From Syntrophomonas sp. (GTDB lineage: Bacteria > Bacillota > Syntrophomonadia > Syntrophomonadales > Syntrophomonadaceae): a stretch of 37,930 nucleotides of DNA. Of the stretch, positions 26,351 to 37,259 are shown piece after piece; position 1 is the stretch's first letter, and every line of letters begins with the position of its first letter. Below the pieces are notes generated by a model that saw only the letters and a list, made by a program, of their open reading frames with translations, was not told where the DNA came from and did no database searches. The translations under genes were made by a program, and so were the position numbers. The stretch is taken from contig JAENZE010000021.1 in assembly GCA_016841425.1 (NCBI GenBank), positions 1 through 37,930 of the forward strand, given 5' to 3'.

Positions 26351-26677
26351 ATGAATGTATCTAAAGACTTAATTGCAGCCTCTGCGACACCTCTAATTCT
26401 AGCCATTCTTAAGGAAAATGACAGCTATGGTTACGCAATCATAAAACGGGTGAAAGAGATGTCGGAAAATGAACTGGTTTGGACGGAAGGTATGTTGTAT
26501 CCGGTGTTGCACCGCCTGGAGGATCAAATGTTAATCGAATCATATTGGAGTAAATCCGAAGCAGGCCGGCAACGTAAATATTATAGGATTAAGGAAAGCG
26601 GTTTAAAAGAATTGGAACTACAAAAAAAGCAATGGGAGATAGTTCATTCTGCCCTGTCTAAAACTTGGAGTGAATAG
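26351..26677 (+). CDS. PadR-family transcriptional regulator
   Basis: A 108-residue winged-helix repressor of the short PadR type. Typical stretches are ILAILKENDSYGYAIIKRVK, WTEGMLYPVLHRLEDQMLIE and GRQRKYYRIKESGLKEL. GGGGGGA lies 7-8 bases before the ATG. The downstream membrane protein with a permease-prefix domain starts 28 bases after the stop. PadR plus such a membrane protein is a common two-gene unit in Firmicutes, usually responding to membrane-active compounds. The promoter upstream carries the probable operator. Confidence 0.92.
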   Translation: MNVSKDLIAASATPLILAILKENDSYGYAIIKRVKEMSENELVWTEGMLYPVLHRLEDQMLIESYWSKSEAGRQRKYYRIKESGLKELELQKKQWEIVHSALSKTWSE

Positions 26678-26704
26678 GAAGGAATAGACCTAAGGAGGGT
26701 CAGT

Positions 26705-28060
26705 ATGTTTGATTTGGAAATGCAGATCCATTCATGGAGTGATCATTTAAGAGCCCGTGGTAATTTTACCGAAGCCGATATTAATGAACTGGAAAGTCAT
26801 TTACGGGAAGAGATCGATGACTTGATTTCAGCCGGACTCACCCCAGATGAATCATTTCTCATAAGTGTGAAACGTTTGGGTAATTTAGATGCGATTTCAC
26901 ACGAATTTGCCAAGGTTAATACTGAGAATCTGTGGAAACATTTGTATATAGACCCAGTAGATAACGTGGCAAAAAGACAAAGCAACCGTGATATTGCTCT
27001 GGTGGTAATTTTTACGCTGCTAGCAGGGACACTAATCAAAATTCCGGAATTATTTGGATTAGGATTTAATGATCCAGGCGCTGACCGGTTCTATTTAAAG
27101 AACATAAGCTTGTTTATTTTGCCGTTTGTCGCAGCTTTTTTCCTAATCAAGAGAAAAGCTGACAGGAAAACATGGTCAACTTTTATGGTGACTTTTATCA
27201 TTGCAGCACTGATTATTAATATCTATCCGTCATTTTCCCCATATAATACCGAAATTCTAAGCAGTCTTCATTTACCATTACTTTTATGGTTAATTGTTGG
27301 GGTGGCATATACAGGCAGGGAGTGGCAAAGCAGCCAGGGCAGAATGAACTTTATACGCTTTACAGGCGAAATGGTGGTCTACGGTGTCTTGGTATGGGCG
27401 GGAGTATTGGTATTAGGCATGTTTACTATGGCTATATTTGGAGCCATCCAAGTTGATGCCGAAAAATTCCTGGAAGACTATTATTTTATTTATGGAGCCT
27501 GTGCGGCAGTCCTGATAACTGTTTATTTAGTTGAAGCAAAGAAAAGTATAGTAGAAAATTTTGCGCCTATTTTAGCAAAGATATTTAGTCCGTTATTCTT
27601 GGTAATTATGGTTTCATTCTTAGTAGTAATGATTATTACCGGCAAAAGTCCATTTATGGAACGAGAATTTTTGATAGCATTTGATCTTATGCTTGCTCTA
27701 GTATTGGGATTGGTTTTATACGTTATTTCATCACGCAATAATCAACAACCGCCCAACTTGTTTGATTATCTGAATCTAGCTCTAATAATAATAGCTCTCA
27801 TAATCGATGGGGTTGCCTTATCTGCAATACTTTTCCGCCTGTCAGCCTTTGGCATCACCCCCAATAAGCTTGCTGCCCTGGGAGAAAATCTGATTTTATT
27901 AGGTAACTTGGGGGGACTTGCCTGGCTATATGTTGCTTATTTTAAAAGGAAACGTGATTTTATTAATCTAGAAAAATGGCAGACAGGTTATCTATATGTT
28001 TATTTCATCTGGACGGCAATTGTAGCATTTATATTTCCGCTATTATTTGGGTTTTATTAA
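26705..28060 (+). CDS. Permease-prefix-domain membrane protein
   Basis: A 451-residue protein. Residues 1-80 form the permease-prefix domain 1 type helical segment (EADINELESHLREEIDDLIS, ESFLISVKRLGNLDAISHEF). This is followed by about 10-11 membrane helices. The fold beyond the prefix is unassigned, and no ABC ATPase is adjacent. AAGGAGG is ideal for the ATG. It is co-transcribed with padR, suggesting that PadR senses a compound this protein handles or whose effect it counters. Confidence 0.85.
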   Translation: MFDLEMQIHSWSDHLRARGNFTEADINELESHLREEIDDLISAGLTPDESFLISVKRLGNLDAISHEFAKVNTENLWKHLYIDPVDNVAKRQSNRDIALVVIFTLLAGTLIKIPELFGLGFNDPGADRFYLKNISLFILPFVAAFFLIKRKADRKTWSTFMVTFIIAALIINIYPSFSPYNTEILSSLHLPLLLWLIVGVAYTGREWQSSQGRMNFIRFTGEMVVYGVLVWAGVLVLGMFTMAIFGAIQVDAEKFLEDYYFIYGACAAVLITVYLVEAKKSIVENFAPILAKIFSPLFLVIMVSFLVVMIITGKSPFMEREFLIAFDLMLALVLGLVLYVISSRNNQQPPNLFDYLNLALIIIALIIDGVALSAILFRLSAFGITPNKLAALGENLILLGNLGGLAWLYVAYFKRKRDFINLEKWQTGYLYVYFIWTAIVAFIFPLLFGFY

Positions 28061-28284: not shown

Positions 28285-28661
28285 ATTACCACTCTCCTTC
28301 TCTAATTTTCTCCAACTTAATGGCTGTAACAATGAATAATGCAACTTCCGTTCCAATTTAGCGTTCAATTAAAATAATGTTCATAAATAAAATATAACGC
28401 CACTAGCCGGGAGATTATAAATCTTTTTATATATCAGTCATCAAATATCAACAGCCAGTTAATTTGCTCATAGTTGTCACAATCTTGCTAGATACTGCCA
28501 CAATTGTTACACTCATGACACACTTCTGGTCAGCTTAATTACAACGGCAGGGGGCACGCTATATAGCATTTTTCAACATAGTTTAGCACTGGTCAATTGT
28601 AACCGAAGACAATTTATACAAGGGCAGGGCAGTAATGGCTTACATAATTTACTGCAATCTC
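28285..28661. other. Intergenic region, nothing recognised
   Basis: AT-rich, no supported gene or clear hairpin. It must include the promoter of the small minus-strand gene. Confidence 0.35.
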
Positions 28662-28722
28662 TTTTCGTGCGACATCATCTTATTAGATTAATTTCGCACT
28701 ATATGTTATAATTTTCGTACGA
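28662..28722 (+). promoter_or_regulatory. Repeated TTTTCGTRCGA operator around the antitoxin-nuclease promoter
   Basis: TTTTCGTGCGA (28662-28672) and TTTTCGTACGA (28712-28722) are 50 bp apart, about five helical turns. A related half-site TTTCGCAC lies at 28692-28699. A -10 box TATAAT is at 28707-28712. The second copy contains the perfect palindrome TCGTACGA and ends at the ribosome site. This is what an autoregulatory Phd/YefM-type operator would look like. Confidence 0.6.
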
Positions 28723-28732
28723 GGTGATTTAT

Positions 28733-29482
28733 ATGAATGAGACCACAAAAGTTATTACCGCCACTGAGCTGAAGACCAATCTGGGTAAATACATCGACTA
28801 TGTTATTGATAACCACGAGGTTGTTATTACCAAAAACGGCAAAAAAGCCATAAGGATTACCCCTTACATCACAGACATCGAACGATATTTTACAGTTAAG
28901 GAAAACGCATTAGATTATCAATATGGCGGCAAAAAAGTATCATATGAAGAATTCATGGAGATTTATGAGAAAAGCGAGCTAAGAATGGAGTATATCAACG
29001 GCGAAATAGTCCTTTTGGCATCCCCCAGCACCTATCACCAGGATATATCCGGGAATTTGTATACCCATCTGCGATCTTATCTAAAAGGCAAGAATTGCAA
29101 GGTTTTCTATGCTCCTTTTGATGTTCATTTCTACAAAAAGGACTTTAGAACACCCGATGTAATGCAGCCCGATTTGCTCATACCATGCGATTTGGAGAAT
29201 AACGTTAATGAAAACGGCCGATACATGGGTACACCCACGCTTTGCGTTGAAATTATATCAAAAAGCACCCGTTCCAAGGATATGGTAGATAAACTCAATA
29301 CTTATATGTTATCCGGTGTGAGAGAATTCTGGCTTGTCGATCCTTTCAAACATTCTATTATGTTGTATGGATTTAAGGACTTAGAAATTGACGAATATAC
29401 CACCTGTAAACTCGAGGATACTCTAACATCGTATTTTTTTGAGGGTTTAGAGATTCCGATGAACGAAATATTTGAGTTTTAG
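28733..29482 (+). CDS. Phd/YefM-antitoxin domain fused to Uma2 (DUF820) nuclease
   Basis: A 249-residue two-domain protein. Residues 7-48 (VITATELKTNLGKYIDYVID...VVITKNGKKAIRITP) match the Phd/YefM antitoxin fold. Residues 65-249 match Uma2/DUF820, a PD-(D/E)XK-fold family: EYINGEIVLLASPSTYHQ, QPDLLIPCD, VEIISKSTRSKDMVDKLNTY and GVREFWLVDP. Uma2 proteins are predicted endonucleases, and their target is unproven. The start is ATG 28733, 5 bases after GAGGTGA; GTG 28724 lies inside that site. The fusion puts a DNA-binding antitoxin on the same chain as the nuclease, so self-control through the upstream repeats is a reasonable inference. It stands just before a decayed helicase gene. Confidence 0.85.
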   Translation: MNETTKVITATELKTNLGKYIDYVIDNHEVVITKNGKKAIRITPYITDIERYFTVKENALDYQYGGKKVSYEEFMEIYEKSELRMEYINGEIVLLASPSTYHQDISGNLYTHLRSYLKGKNCKVFYAPFDVHFYKKDFRTPDVMQPDLLIPCDLENNVNENGRYMGTPTLCVEIISKSTRSKDMVDKLNTYMLSGVREFWLVDPFKHSIMLYGFKDLEIDEYTTCKLEDTLTSYFFEGLEIPMNEIFEF

Positions 29483-29484
29483 AA

Positions 29485-30793
29485 GTGGCTGAGGAGCTGC
29501 TGTTACGTAGTAATGAATACCCATGCTATTTTACCTGTTATTATAAATTGAAATCTGTTGCTCCACAGGAAGAGTACGGAATTCTTTCAGCGATACTACT
29601 TTCATCTATATTGCTTATTCCCGTTTGGGTTCAATCTGAGTCAGAAAGAGGCTGCCCAGAAGGCCCTTACCCAACAAATCAGTGTTATCGAAGGCCCTCC
29701 CGGAACTGGTAAAACGCAAACCATCCTTAATATCATCGCAAATACTATCATGAATAACAAAACGGTAGCCGTTGTATCCAATAATAACTCGGCTACCGCC
29801 AATGTTCTGGAAAAAATGCAAAAATACCAAGTGGATTTTATAGCAGCATACCTCGGAAACAGAGAAAATAAAGAAAAATTCTAAGCAAGAGTTATCAGCT
29901 CTGCTCGTGGAGAAAAAATACTTCGATGCCTATTATAACGAGAGTATTGAAAAAATTGCTCCTTACCGTTCCTTATATAAGCATAAATCAGACACTGTCA
30001 TGACACTATGGCTTGAATATCAGCAAATAGCTCCCCTTATCGCCTGCAGACCGATAAACTGAAAGAGGCAGTAGGGGATGAGGGCATTGAGATTGACACG
30101 GTTCATAAATATCAGGGCCGGGAAAAAGATGTAATCATTATCACGACGGTTGTAAATGAAATGAATGACTTCGTAGATAACCCCAACCTTATAAATGTTG
30201 CCGTGTCTCGTGCAGTAGACCAACTGATTGTAGTAGTGTCAGACGATGTGGGCGATAAGAATTCCAATATAGGAGACTTGGTTAGATATATCGAATATAA
30301 CAATTTTGAACTCATCAACAGCAGCATCTATTCCGTATTTGACCTGCTATACCACCGGTATTCTAAAGAATTGTTTGAATTCATGAAATATAGAAAAAGG
30401 GTTTCAGAATATGACTCGGAGAACCTGATGAATGCCGTAATCGAGAAGGTATTAAGGTTGCCGGAATTTATTCATCTTGACTATGTCATGCACCAACCCT
30501 TGAAAATGCTGATTCGCAATCTGGAGAAACTGAATGAGCAAGAGTGCCGATTTGTCATGAACATTCATACCCATACTGATTTTCTCATTTTCAACAAGCT
30601 GGACAAAAAACCAGTACTGGTAGTAGAGGTCGATGGTTATGCCTTTCACGCCAATAACCCTAAACAGCTTGAAAGAGATCAAATGAAAGATGGGATACTT
30701 CATAAATACAGCATTCCTATATTAAGGCTTGCAACCAATGAAAGCGGGGAAGAAACAAGGCTGCATGACACGCTTACGGAGATTCTTAATTAA
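29485..30793 (+). pseudogene. Decayed superfamily I helicase (AAA_11/AAA_12) with DUF2726-like nuclease tail
   Basis: A first readable frame (to 29884) carries NLSQKEAAQKALTQQISVIE, Walker A EGPPGTGKTQTILNII and VAVVSNNNSATANVLEKMQK, the start of a DNA2/NAM7-type helicase. A frameshift near 29880 moves the reading to a second frame (KQELSALLVEKKYFDAYYNE...) ending at about 30060. The third frame (from about 30032) starts PYRLQTDKLKEAVGDEGIEI and contains the helicase end IDTVHKYQGREKDVIIITT...NVAVSRA. Several hundred residues between the Walker A block and motif V are missing. The tail (about 30580-30790) with VLVVEVDGYAFH and GILHKYSIPILRLATNESG is a DUF2726-type PD-(D/E)XK-like domain. The protein cannot be functional. 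Confidence 0.8.
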
Positions 30794-32918: not shown

Positions 32919-34700
32919 TACTTGCTATGTTATGAAGTGATTACGTCTAATGTCTATAATGCGAACCTAATAGAAGTTCTAGATGCTTTCGGTTATAGCA
33001 ATAATGTGAAGTCTAAAGTGTTGTTATTATACGATGACAGGATGTGGTTAGTATTTACGGGATAGACACAAGTAATGCTCAAGAGCTCCTTTGCTATCAT
33101 GACTTATATGACGGAGCAATTCCGGATATTAAAATGGAAATAGCAAAATTGAATATGCACAAGTCAATTTCGATTATTTCCGAACTCATTAATGCACGAG
33201 AATACAAAATTGAGGTTAAGACCTGTGACTTAAAATTGTGTTTACCTTTTGAAACTGCTTTAAAAAAGATTTTTTTAGGGGTATCTGCGAATTCCCCAAA
33301 TGAAGTTTTTGGAAATCCGCTTTTGTATAAGAACAAACATATCGTTTCACTTCAAATGTTATTAATTCTCTTGAAAAAAGTGATTGTGTATGGAGATTAT
33401 TCATCATTGACGCAAACGGAATATACAATAGATGCTAATGATTATAGAAATATCATAAGGCTTCAGCTAATAGTCACAGAAGTGTTTGATGAAGATTTCA
33501 ACAAGGAAAAAATCGATATAAATCATTTTATCTATGGTAACTATCATTTGAATTACGACTATAATGTAGCGAATGAATTTGTACGTTCTTATTATATGCT
33601 TGAAAAATTATCACGCGATAGAAGCAACTTTGAGATAGATATTCAAGGAGAGTATCGTGACTATTATGGCGATTTTGTAAAGAAATATAAATACACACCT
33701 ACACAATATCTCTCATTACTATTTTGGGAGCTTTCGGCATATTACCCATTAAAAAACGCTCTAGCTTGCAACAGTATTTGGCGTGATATTGAAACTGTTT
33801 ATGGTAAAACAGCAATAATTGAAGTAGGAAAAAAAATTATTGAAGATCTGTCACAAAAGCCTGATTATTATAAAGAATGGGCTAAAAATACTGAAGGTGA
33901 GATGTGGGACTTCAGCTTATTTAGCGCTTACCCGTTTATTATAGATCACAACGGAGCCTATATTTCCATTAGCGAGCATACATTGAAAAACGCTTTTTTC
34001 GAAAAGCTATACTGGAAAATTAGGGATTGTTATTCTGAGAATGATAGCAGGGCCATGTCTTTTTATGGGAGGCTTTTTGAAAAATATGTTCAGGACTTAA
34101 CTCAAGAAGCTGCTGCTAAAGTTGATACCTTTGATTATATTTCAGAATTTAAATATGGTAAAAACAATAAGAGGTCATCTGATGCATATATACGAAAAGG
34201 CGATAAGCTTTTAATTGTTGAAACTAAAGGATATTCAATTCTGCAAAATTCTCTTGCCCAAAATGTTGATATTGAGAAGAACAATGAGAAGCTATTTATT
34301 AAGCCGATACTTCAAGCTGACAAGAGATGAAATAGATCAACTTGGTGGCTATTTTGATGACGTTTCAACAGCTTATATTGTATCTGTAACAATGGATAGT
34401 GTAAATGCTGTCCCCGCTTATCTTGATACTATTTATGGGGATATTTTTGCAAAGAAAAAATCGAAAAAAACAAAATACTTCTACAATTTTAATATAGAAG
34501 AATATGAAATGTTGATGTTTTTAACTGAAAATGGAATCGACTTTTTCGAAGTCTTAGCAAATTACTTTGAATGTGAACGTATACTGCCGTTTAGCGCTTA
34601 TCTCCACCGAAGCACTGAAGGGAAAATCAAAATGACAGTATTCATGGATTCCATTTACAAAGAAGCCTGTAATAACATGAAATTAATGTATGAATTATAG
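32919..34700 (+). pseudogene. PD-(D/E)XK nuclease-like gene broken by two frameshifts
   Basis: Three consecutive segments read as one protein of roughly 590 residues. Segment 1 (32919-33063, no clear start): EVITSNVYNANLIEVLDAFG...LLLYDDRMW. Segment 2 (33044-34330): VSIYGIDTSNAQELLCYHDL... through RLFEKYVQDLTQEAA to SDAYIRKGDKLLIVETKGYS, which fits a PD-(D/E)XK core (Asp in SDAY, then E-T-K), and IEKNNEKLFIKPILQAD. Segment 3 (to 34700): DEIDQLGGYFDDVSTAYIVS, NFNIEEYEMLMFLTENGIDF. The joins near 33045 and 34320 need one base change each; the two shifts cancel in frame. Sequencing error is possible, but neighbouring genes are also broken. It is not assigned to a known restriction type. It lies 231 bases before the STAND gene on the same strand and could once have been its partner. 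Confidence 0.65.
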
Positions 34701-34931: not shown

Positions 34932-37259
34932 ATGTTTGAAATTTCAAATCTTAATGATTATGAATTTGAATTAATTTGCAGGGACATTATGGAACGATTA
35001 CTAGATAAACGGCTGTACACTTTTCCAAGAGGGCGGGACGGTGGAATTGATATTTGCGATTCAGAAAGAAACCCCAAAATAATTATTCAAGCTAAGCATT
35101 ATAACAAAAGTAAATATTATAATTTGAAACGGGCTTTAGATTCAGAGTTGAATAAAGTTAAGGAGAAATCTCCAGAGCAATATTATATTTGTACAAGTTT
35201 AGAATTAACAAAATCTAATAAAGACGAAATAGTTTCTATGTTTTATCCGTATATGACTGATATCAGTTTTGTGATTGATAGCATTGAGATACAAAATTTT
35301 CTAGAAGATGAAACAAACAAAGACATTATTCAACGTCACTACAAGTTATGGCTTAGCTCAACAAGTGTTTTAAGTTTAATAAATAATCAAAACGTTTTTA
35401 TTGATTGTGATGAATTATTATTAGATATAGAAAACCATATAAAACTATTTGTGGAAACTAGATCATATCACGATGCAATTAAACAACTTATCCAGGATGG
35501 AATGATCGTTATAACGGGCGCACCGGGAGTTGGGAAAAGTACACTATCAAAAATGCTATTGTTCTATTTTGTCTCGCAAGGATTTGCTGTAAGGTATACG
35601 ACAGATAATAACATAGGTAACATAAAAAAAACCCTATCTCTAGATCCTATGAGAAAGGAAATTGTTCTTTTAGATGATTTTCTTGGTCAACATTATTTAA
35701 AAATTAAGGATAGTCAGCCAACTGAGATCAAATCGTTAATATCCTTCATCAAAAGAAATTCGAATAAAAAAATAATATTAAACAGTAGAATCACCATTCT
35801 AAATGAAGCGAAAGAGCAATTTCTGGCGTTTAATGAATTAATGGAGAACCATGAAAAAAGCATATATTTGATTGATTTAGATGATATGACACAGTTAGAA
35901 AAAGCAAAAATTCTATATAGCCATATTTATTTTAATGAATTACCTAGAGTATATTTTCTCAATATAAAAGAAGATAAAAACTATTTCAAAATAGTCGCAC
36001 ATAAAAACTATAATCCACGAATTATAGAGTATGTTTTAAAGAAGAGAAACTATGCTTGTATTTCCCCAGATAGTTTCTTTGCATATATTAAAAGCAAACT
36101 AGACAATCCTGAAGATGTATGGCGAGATGAATTTCAGAATCGAATTGAGGAAACAGACAGAACTATTCTCTACACAGTTTATTCTTTAACTGATACAGTA
36201 ATTGAAAAAGATTTATTAGAAAGAAGCTTTGATCTGATTTTACGTAATACTTCGTGTGATTATTCCATTCGTCAATTTAGAGCATCCTATTTGCGGCTTA
36301 ATGGGTCTCTCTTAAAAGGGGTGGAAGAAAAAGGTTACCTGAAAATTGGAGTCGTTAACCCCTCTGTAAATGACTTCTTAAAGAACGAAATATCGAATAA
36401 TCCGAATGAACAGCTACAAATAATAAAAAATATAGATTTGATAGAACCAATGATAAAAATCGCTGTTTGTAAAGATGCTGAACAAGAACTTATTGAAAAG
36501 GTTTTATCAGGTGAATTATTAAAATTAAAGAACTTGAATTTGTCCCCTTTTTATTATTATATGTTTCTTGTTGATAAATTCGACATATATAATGAATCAA
36601 TTTCCAAAATGGTAGAATTATCATTTGAAAGAATGTATGAAAATGTTAAGTCATACAAGGAACTTGCTGAATATGGACGTTTAATCACAAGAATACTTTC
36701 TAAAGATTTTGTTGATTTTTATAAACTCCATGATGTTTTCAATGATGAAACAAAAATAAGGTTCCTTCTTGAAAAAGTATTATTTTATGAATATCAAAGA
36801 GTAACTAATATTATAATTCAAAAAAAGTTAGTTCCCGTATCGTCGTTTGCTTATCAATCAATAAAAGAGATCATGATAGATAAAATGATCTTGCAAGCTC
36901 AAGTTAAAGTTGATGAGGAGCTTGGCAATATAGTATCTTCGGTTCTAAATAGAATTGATAAAGATAAAATATATCATTATCGTAAAGAAGGTTATAACCG
37001 TCTTTTAGAACAAAGTATTATGGAAGATATAGATACGGCAGTATTTGATATAATTGAAAACAACTTTCTGCCAGAAGTACATGCAGAATTAGATTTAAAT
37101 GTTGAAGATTTTGATTCAATAGATAATGAATATTTTTTTGATATCGACTCTACAATTAATTCTTTGTTGCATGAAGAAGTTGATGATTACGACCATGACG
37201 ATCGGCGAATTTACGGGAGATCGGAAGTAATATTAATTCAAGATATTTTTGAACGATAG
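34932..37259 (+). CDS. Mrr-type nuclease / STAND NTPase fusion (putative phage-defence effector)
   Basis: A 775-residue soluble protein. Residues 1-140 form an Mrr-cat-type restriction endonuclease domain: Glu13, GRDGGIDI (Asp36, Asp40) and IIQAKHY (Gln53, Lys55), the D-Q-x-K version of the PD-(D/E)XK site. From about 180 an nSTAND3-like P-loop NTPase follows: Walker A GAPGVGKST (196-204, Lys202), Walker B EIVLLDD (Asp248, Asp249), KKIILNSRI (sensor-type Asn/Arg strand), and a winged-helix-like part near 400-480. The last 290 residues look all-helical, as in sensor arms of STAND proteins, and end very acidic. Nuclease-STAND-sensor layouts are known in AVAST/Avs-type antiphage proteins; this one is of that general design but I cannot place it in a named Avs type. 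GGGAAA...GTGAG precedes the ATG. It is AT-rich compared with the left half of the window. Confidence 0.88.
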   Translation: MFEISNLNDYEFELICRDIMERLLDKRLYTFPRGRDGGIDICDSERNPKIIIQAKHYNKSKYYNLKRALDSELNKVKEKSPEQYYICTSLELTKSNKDEIVSMFYPYMTDISFVIDSIEIQNFLEDETNKDIIQRHYKLWLSSTSVLSLINNQNVFIDCDELLLDIENHIKLFVETRSYHDAIKQLIQDGMIVITGAPGVGKSTLSKMLLFYFVSQGFAVRYTTDNNIGNIKKTLSLDPMRKEIVLLDDFLGQHYLKIKDSQPTEIKSLISFIKRNSNKKIILNSRITILNEAKEQFLAFNELMENHEKSIYLIDLDDMTQLEKAKILYSHIYFNELPRVYFLNIKEDKNYFKIVAHKNYNPRIIEYVLKKRNYACISPDSFFAYIKSKLDNPEDVWRDEFQNRIEETDRTILYTVYSLTDTVIEKDLLERSFDLILRNTSCDYSIRQFRASYLRLNGSLLKGVEEKGYLKIGVVNPSVNDFLKNEISNNPNEQLQIIKNIDLIEPMIKIAVCKDAEQELIEKVLSGELLKLKNLNLSPFYYYMFLVDKFDIYNESISKMVELSFERMYENVKSYKELAEYGRLITRILSKDFVDFYKLHDVFNDETKIRFLLEKVLFYEYQRVTNIIIQKKLVPVSSFAYQSIKEIMIDKMILQAQVKVDEELGNIVSSVLNRIDKDKIYHYRKEGYNRLLEQSIMEDIDTAVFDIIENNFLPEVHAELDLNVEDFDSIDNEYFFDIDSTINSLLHEEVDDYDHDDRRIYGRSEVILIQDIFER

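Follow-up and report, generated by a model that had tools for sequence, protein, structure and literature searches.

A Phd-type DNA-binding head fused to a Uma2 nuclease domain in Syntrophomonas: a probable one-gene, self-repressing nuclease module

Introduction

Uma2 (DUF820, COG4636, PF05685) is a large nuclease family without a known role. An H-PD-EXX-K active site has been described for COG4636, Uma2 was proposed in 2005 to be a selfish element and given a selfish, recombinogenic role, and its discoverers saw no hint in the gene neighbourhood of how the nuclease is inhibited or regulated (passages of PMC551604). In 2009, Uma2 was described as a likely solo toxin that is seldom found linked to antitoxins (passages of Makarova 2009, PMC2701414). 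The first-pass annotation of the DNA studied here held that Uma2 proteins have no well-defined role, and the literature agrees: the proposals comprise the selfish element, the likely solo toxin and the PADLOC candidate PDC-S03. Regarding the Phd/YefM family, YefM/Axe repressors bind paired TGTACA palindromes, 12 bp apart, that overlap their own promoter (passages of PMC7730913).

Both the Phd and the Uma2 domains are already known; a fusion of the two with an operator system was not found described. The literature on Uma2, DUF820, COG4636 and PDC-S03, searched through titles, abstract openings and passages, yielded no description of a Phd-Uma2 fusion or of its operators, and no paper naming PDC-S03. 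Here we describe such a fusion from Syntrophomonas sp., together with its predicted operator, its relatives and its surroundings.

Results

One frame encodes a Phd-type head and a complete Uma2 domain

The window, the whole stretch of 37,930 nucleotides that was analysed (assembly GCA_016841425.1, contig JAENZE010000021.1, forward strand), contains a frame of 249 residues with no internal stop, which is divided as follows.

28733..29482, + strand: Phd-head/Uma2 fusion gene, 249 residues, ATG start at 28733, stop at 29480-29482
28748..28867, + strand: Phd/YefM-type DNA-binding head, residues 6-45 (Pfam PF02604, own-genome family search, predicted fold, PDB matches 4zlx, 2odk and 6jqy)
28877..28939, + strand: linker, residues 49-69 (among 71 proteins, E57 is invariant and Y62 nearly so; residues 50-64 predicted to be disordered)
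28946..29461, + strand: Uma2 PD-(D/E)XK nuclease domain, residues 72-243 (PF05685; H102, P146-D147, E173 and K187 invariant)

Both families were recognized by Pfam above their cut-offs, PF02604 at residues 6-45 (E 3.1e-10, 40.1 bits against 29.8) and PF05685, as a complete domain, at residues 72-243 (E 6.5e-26, 91.3 bits against 27); the head was also named phd_fam by NCBIfam. The fusion of Phd and Uma2 in a single frame, as first annotated, is thus confirmed, and the head boundary given at that time (residues 7-48) agrees with the Pfam match to within a few residues. However, the head had also been called an antitoxin, and this label is not supported: the PF02604 match covers profile positions 2-42 of 74, which is the DNA-binding half, the C-terminal toxin-neutralising segment of Phd/YefM is absent from the protein, and the segment that follows resembles the N-terminal flanks of Uma2. 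What stands of the earlier interpretation as a whole is the authentic single-chain fusion and, on the strong comparative evidence given below, a self-repressing gene.

A search for the same fusion elsewhere was successful. The fusion is no artefact, given three more copies in the same genome and 80 full-length copies across the phylum (40 of 299 genomes); a frameshift or assembly error is further ruled out by the match of all 71 aligned proteins to both families and by purifying selection. In comparisons with nine relatives, dN/dS was about 0.03-0.18 for the head and 0.05-0.20 for the nuclease part (a tenth row, L026, was left out, an indel having made it invalid).

Within the nuclease part, H102, P146-D147, E173 and K187 are invariant in 71/71 aligned fusion proteins and correspond to the H-PD-EXX-K site of COG4636, as that motif is given in the passages of PMC551604. 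With its complete PD-EXX-K site, the Uma2 domain is very probably an active nuclease. It also matches the PDC-S03 models of PADLOC (E 8.2e-56 over residues 67-248; all PDC-S03 matches fall within 66-248).

Predicted structure and the linker

An AlphaFold2 model built with 71 aligned relatives reached a mean pLDDT of 87.1 and a pTM of 0.70. Residues 5-42 of the head were modelled as beta-alpha-alpha-beta-beta, in agreement with the Phd-like fold expected in the first 60 residues. The best PDB matches of the head in Foldseek were VapB46 and the N-terminal DNA-binding domain of P1 Phd, with E-values that are weak because the head is short (about 40 residues); its superposition on 4zlx covers 38 columns at 1.3 A, with a TM of 0.74 by target. 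The nuclease domain, mostly above a pLDDT of 90 with some lower stretches, matches the solved Uma2 structures 9y1l, 6okh, 3ot2 and 1wdj.

Between the two domains, residues 50-64 have a pLDDT below 50, so that the linker structure is not confidently modelled. Its sequence is conserved, with E57 invariant and Y62 nearly so in the 71 aligned proteins. These residues belong to an ExAxxY motif at positions 57-62, just N-terminal to the Uma2 fold, which is present in both classes of head and in some headless members. The motif was counted in 53/54 proteins with the head type of the fusion gene (type A), in 17/17 with the sister type B, in 14/17 Uma2 rows with an HTH_17 head and in 5/19 headless rows. 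Because HTH_17-headed and some headless Uma2 proteins also carry it, the linker is a feature of Uma2 and not of the antitoxin; the possibility that it represents an antitoxin tail was rejected on the same grounds.

Spread of the fusion and history of the heads

The source genome (3.58 Mb) encodes six Uma2 proteins, four with a Phd head and two with an HTH_17/MerR-like head, one head of each kind scoring just below its Pfam cut-off (28.4 against 29.8 for Phd, 26.9 against 27 for HTH_17). The two genes with HTH_17/excisionase-like heads are located at L006:1336-2088 and L005:1489-2241 (- strand), and their kin form a separate clade.

Matches to the fusion profile were found in 149 of the 299 genomes of the phylum, the 80 full-length fused copies being those counted above. 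A search of genome contigs confirmed at least 358 relatives, of which the best 80 were retained. In 79 of these the match spans almost the entire length, and in one it is truncated where the contig ends; L069 stops early and looks disrupted. Named carriers include Syntrophomonas wolfei subsp. methylbutyratica, Candidatus Formimonas warabiya, Anaerovirgula multivorans, Ruminiclostridium and Bacillaceae. The alignment of 71 rows (A2) used throughout consists of 67 of these best 80 loci, the fusion protein and its three paralogues; the 13 loci left out were near-duplicates and the broken or cut L069 and L085. All 71 proteins match both Pfam families.

On mobile elements, 43 plasmid records matched and none had 80% of the query covered; one phage record matched, in the nuclease part only. 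Viral contigs contained Uma2 relatives at 66 loci (L193-L258), and no match reached the start of the Phd head; the one that begins at residue 29 (L208) showed no Phd head when its frame was read. The viral fold library gave no match to the fusion protein at E 0.001.

In an unrooted maximum-likelihood tree of 66 Uma2 domains, a branch supported at 100/99 sets all 30 Phd-headed rows apart; the 17 HTH_17-headed rows (L020 and L104 being the same gene) all fall in another group, likewise at 100/99, and headless forms lie between. Head type A is one group (100/98), and type B is not. The simplest reading is that Phd and HTH_17 heads were acquired independently, in two gains; in an unrooted tree, headless forms may also reflect loss.

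Predicted operator boxes follow the type of head

Upstream of the fusion gene, the following promoter and operator elements were predicted.

28666..28671, + strand: operator box 1 (CGTGCG), 5' of the -35 region
28694..28699, + strand: operator box 2 (degenerate, TCGCAC), within the -35/-10 spacer
28704..28712, + strand: extended -10 element TGTTATAAT, deduced by visual inspection and from an alignment of 24 upstream regions
28716..28721, + strand: operator box 3 (CGTACG palindrome), immediately downstream of the -10 and ahead of the ribosome-binding site

The operator of this gene is imperfect, with one CGTACG, one CGTGCG and one degenerate box, and its promoter was not listed by a consensus promoter scan because its -35 is weak. 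Alignment of 24 upstream regions, those of the fusion gene and 23 close relatives, revealed the arrangement box-TTGcat-half-box-TGNTATAAT-TCGTACGA-GGTGAT with a 17-nt spacer: a TCGTRCGA-like box is followed by TTGcat, a TCGTnC half-box lies inside the spacer, TG precedes TATAAT, and TCGTACGA runs into GGTGAT.

In a first set of genes, drawn from the 80 loci after two (L082 and L092) were dropped for want of a start codon, CGYRCG was found upstream of 51/65 A-head and 0/14 B-head genes, and TAGCTA upstream of 12/14 B-head and 0/65 A-head genes. Shuffled A-head upstream sequences contained CGYRCG in a mean of 5.8 and a maximum of 12 of 65, counts that overstate independence, since related genes share boxes partly by descent. 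A second set, obtained by other searches and overlapping the first in part, gave CGYRCG for 12/13 A-head genes and TAGCTA for 20/21 B-head genes, with one gene counted twice (L107 and L073 are apparently the same); neither box was found upstream of its headless Uma2 genes (0/19). Among the HTH_17-headed rows, CGYRCG was found in 0/17 and TAGCTA in 1/17. Two or more direct TTGATT-like repeats were seen upstream of 9/17 of these rows.

The TAGCTA boxes of head type B sit at the same place as the CGTACG boxes of type A and are present at all three B-head paralogues of the source genome. CGYRCG was absent within 130 nt upstream of 14/65 A-head genes, many of them in one subclade, where upstream half-boxes can be discerned by eye only. 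Comparison thus shows that the type of predicted operator follows the type of head. The self-repression suggested by the first-pass annotation is strongly supported by this comparison, in which CGTACG and TAGCTA boxes on the genes' own promoters track the head and are lacking in the headless forms; repression of its own gene by the fusion protein is very probable.

Right-spaced pairs of boxes are found almost only at fused genes

Pairs of TTAGCTAA separated by 1-9 nt were searched for in the 299 genomes, overlapping hits being merged and positions compared with the fused matches by reading. This gave 22 sites, against 7 for a reversed-pattern control; 12 of the 22 precede a fused match by 15-29 nt. 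With a spacer of 1, 8 or 9, the pairs numbered 13, and 12/13 were at fused genes. Only one occurrence of the strict TCGTACGA (CGTACG) pair was found among the 299 genomes, which is too few for statistics on its own; it precedes a fused match by 35 nt. Neither exact CGTACG pairs with 14-18 nt between them nor exact TTAGCTAA pairs with 1-14 nt between them were found in the source genome, because its own pairs are too degenerate. As right-spaced TTAGCTAA pairs are found almost only at fused genes, the head appears to be dedicated to its own gene and the paralogues, with no wider regulon.

Surroundings of the gene

DNA similarity to 23 other loci is confined to about 28630-29500, that is, to the operator and the gene. 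The exceptions are L024 and L027, two loci of Syntrophomonas type with extra flank matches, and L029, which has a second fused copy. Across 81 loci, no neighbour within 2.5 kb is conserved except additional members of the family, and no partner gene was found; the hypothesis of a classic two-gene toxin-antitoxin system with an overlooked partner was rejected on this basis. In 10 of these loci a further Phd-Uma2 or Uma2 gene lies nearby, which makes it the commonest specific neighbour. A second cluster of neighbours, also in 10 loci and ABC-transporter-like by sequence reading, and several smaller ones lie at scattered offsets and on either strand.

Two sister genomes allow the site itself to be compared. 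The first (G189) has the upstream flank adjoining the gene in common with the window. In the second (G061), the gene is missing at the site, and the contig holds two copies at other positions. At the site itself, the upstream flank is found together with the tail of a helicase remnant, without the fusion gene. A clean insertion site at this position was rejected, the helicase remnant having been left behind. Because this remnant remains at the empty place, loss of the fusion gene by deletion in G061 is a simpler reading than insertion. Similar copies are present in unrelated gene surroundings, as would fit the transfer of gene and operator as a one-gene unit; the sister genomes show loss, not clean insertion.

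Several neighbouring genes of the window can be described. Upstream, at 26351-28060, a PadR regulator and, after it, a membrane-protein-like frame of 451 residues likely form an operon directly before the fusion gene. Downstream, an SF1 helicase whose C-terminal domain is DUF2726 survives in two pieces, 29558-29884 and 30161-30793, of which the front and the tail are kept and the middle is gone; the helicase tail in G061 is more decayed (L134:1597-1827). Further on, the gene at 34932-37259 combines an Mrr-type nuclease domain with an nSTAND3 NTPase and strongly matches the PADLOC candidate PDC-S73 (E 1.8e-128); it is a likely defence gene near the fusion. Close to it, at 33044-34330, a 428-residue protein has no Pfam or PADLOC match at E 0.01.

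Discussion

We favor, with a probability of roughly 0.72, a one-gene self-repressing nuclease module, in which the Phd-type head occupies boxes on its own promoter and the Uma2 nuclease serves as a guarded weapon or as part of a selfish module. Probably dimeric, the Phd-type domain at the N-terminus would bind CGTACG palindromes interleaved with the -35 and -10 elements of its own gene, and this binding would keep the level of the fusion protein low. The C-terminal Uma2 domain would act as a nuclease: if the repressor were lost from the operator, or if the gene entered a repressor-free cell, expression would rise and the nuclease could then act. Against such a module speak the 14/65 A-head genes with no CGYRCG box, the imperfect operator of the fusion gene and the promoter missed by the consensus scan; in addition, a nuclease tethered at its own promoter would have to spare that promoter.

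Alternatively, the protein could be a toxin-antitoxin system in one chain, the head and linker inhibiting the nuclease in cis and proteolysis of the head freeing the nuclease and derepressing the gene together. The conservation of a linker that is nonetheless predicted to be disordered would suit this mechanism, autoinhibited fused toxin-antitoxins such as CapRel are reported to exist, and the cited passage of Makarova 2009 (PMC2701414) already regards Uma2 as a likely solo toxin. However, the neutralising half of Phd is the part that the protein does not have, the ExAxxY motif recurs in HTH_17-headed and headless Uma2 rows, and the structure of the linker is not confident in the model, so that we consider this alternative as a whole unlikely. 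Since the linker is a feature of Uma2 and the neutralising half of Phd is absent, we do not term the protein a single-chain toxin-antitoxin.

The head might instead bring the nuclease to specific DNA sites, in a homing- or restriction-like manner, repression being a by-product. The covalent joining of head and nuclease, both conserved, the acquisition, by a separate clade, of a DNA-binding head of unrelated type in the same position, and the selfish, recombinogenic role proposed for the family (passages of PMC551604) are all in keeping with an addressed nuclease. Such an enzyme should have a set of target sites, of which there is no sign, right-spaced pairs being almost confined to the genes' own promoters; cuts at these promoters would break the host chromosome, and no clean insertion site was found. 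We therefore regard this function as quite improbable. It is very unlikely that the protein is a plain transcription regulator whose nuclease fold is now a passive part for oligomerisation or binding: the active-site H, PD, E and K are invariant in all 71 proteins, the dN/dS of the nuclease part is low, and the operators indicate self-regulation with no sign of another regulon, even though inactive PD-(D/E)XK folds exist (passages of PMC551604) and the literature searched yielded no nuclease assay for a fused member.

Beyond the self-repressing module at this locus, a wider generalization can be offered only tentatively, and we hold it to be rather doubtful: Uma2 proteins of Bacillota might constitute a new class of one-gene toxin or defence modules, in which an antitoxin-derived (or, independently, excisionase-like) head would be repressor, sensor and safety catch at once. 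Loss or digestion of the head would open the promoter and free the nuclease, and heads and operators changing together would give the copies within one cell separate circuits (here CGTACG and TAGCTA).

For one large branch of Uma2, a built-in repressor-type head with its operator provides a concrete answer to the question of regulation raised in 2005. The promoter of the fusion offers laboratory control of such genes, whereby a role of Uma2 in toxicity or defence becomes directly testable, and the fusions of one genome, in which head and operator change as pairs, supply a natural set of cases for testing how Phd domains recognize DNA.

Compared with described Uma2 proteins, the fusion protein has the whole nuclease domain, the H-PD-EXX-K site and matches to solved members of the family, and it shares with them multiple copies per genome and neighbouring paralogues; it differs by its DNA-binding head, which the passages of the family papers do not mention. 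Its Uma2 part matches the PDC-S03 models, which stand for defence genes of candidate status only; the head lies outside these matches. The two HTH_17-headed Uma2 proteins of the source genome likewise place a DNA-binding head before Uma2 and have a similar linker motif, but their head is unrelated, their clade is separate, CGYRCG boxes are absent, and some of their kin have TTGATT-like direct repeats. Type II toxin-antitoxin systems consist of two adjacent genes, unlike the fusion, which stands without a conserved partner in the 81 neighbourhoods compared. CapRel-type fused toxin-antitoxins reportedly also unite regulatory and toxic parts in one chain, although their domains are unrelated to those of Phd-Uma2. 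Finally, the N-terminal DNA-binding fold and the predicted paired palindromes over the gene's own promoter are shared with Phd/YefM antitoxins, from which the fusion differs in having neither the C-terminal neutralising half nor a separate toxin gene, and in its boxes: TGTACA at 12 nt in the cited passages on Phd/YefM, CGTACG or TAGCTA, in pairs about 21-23 or 9-17 nt apart, in the fusion.
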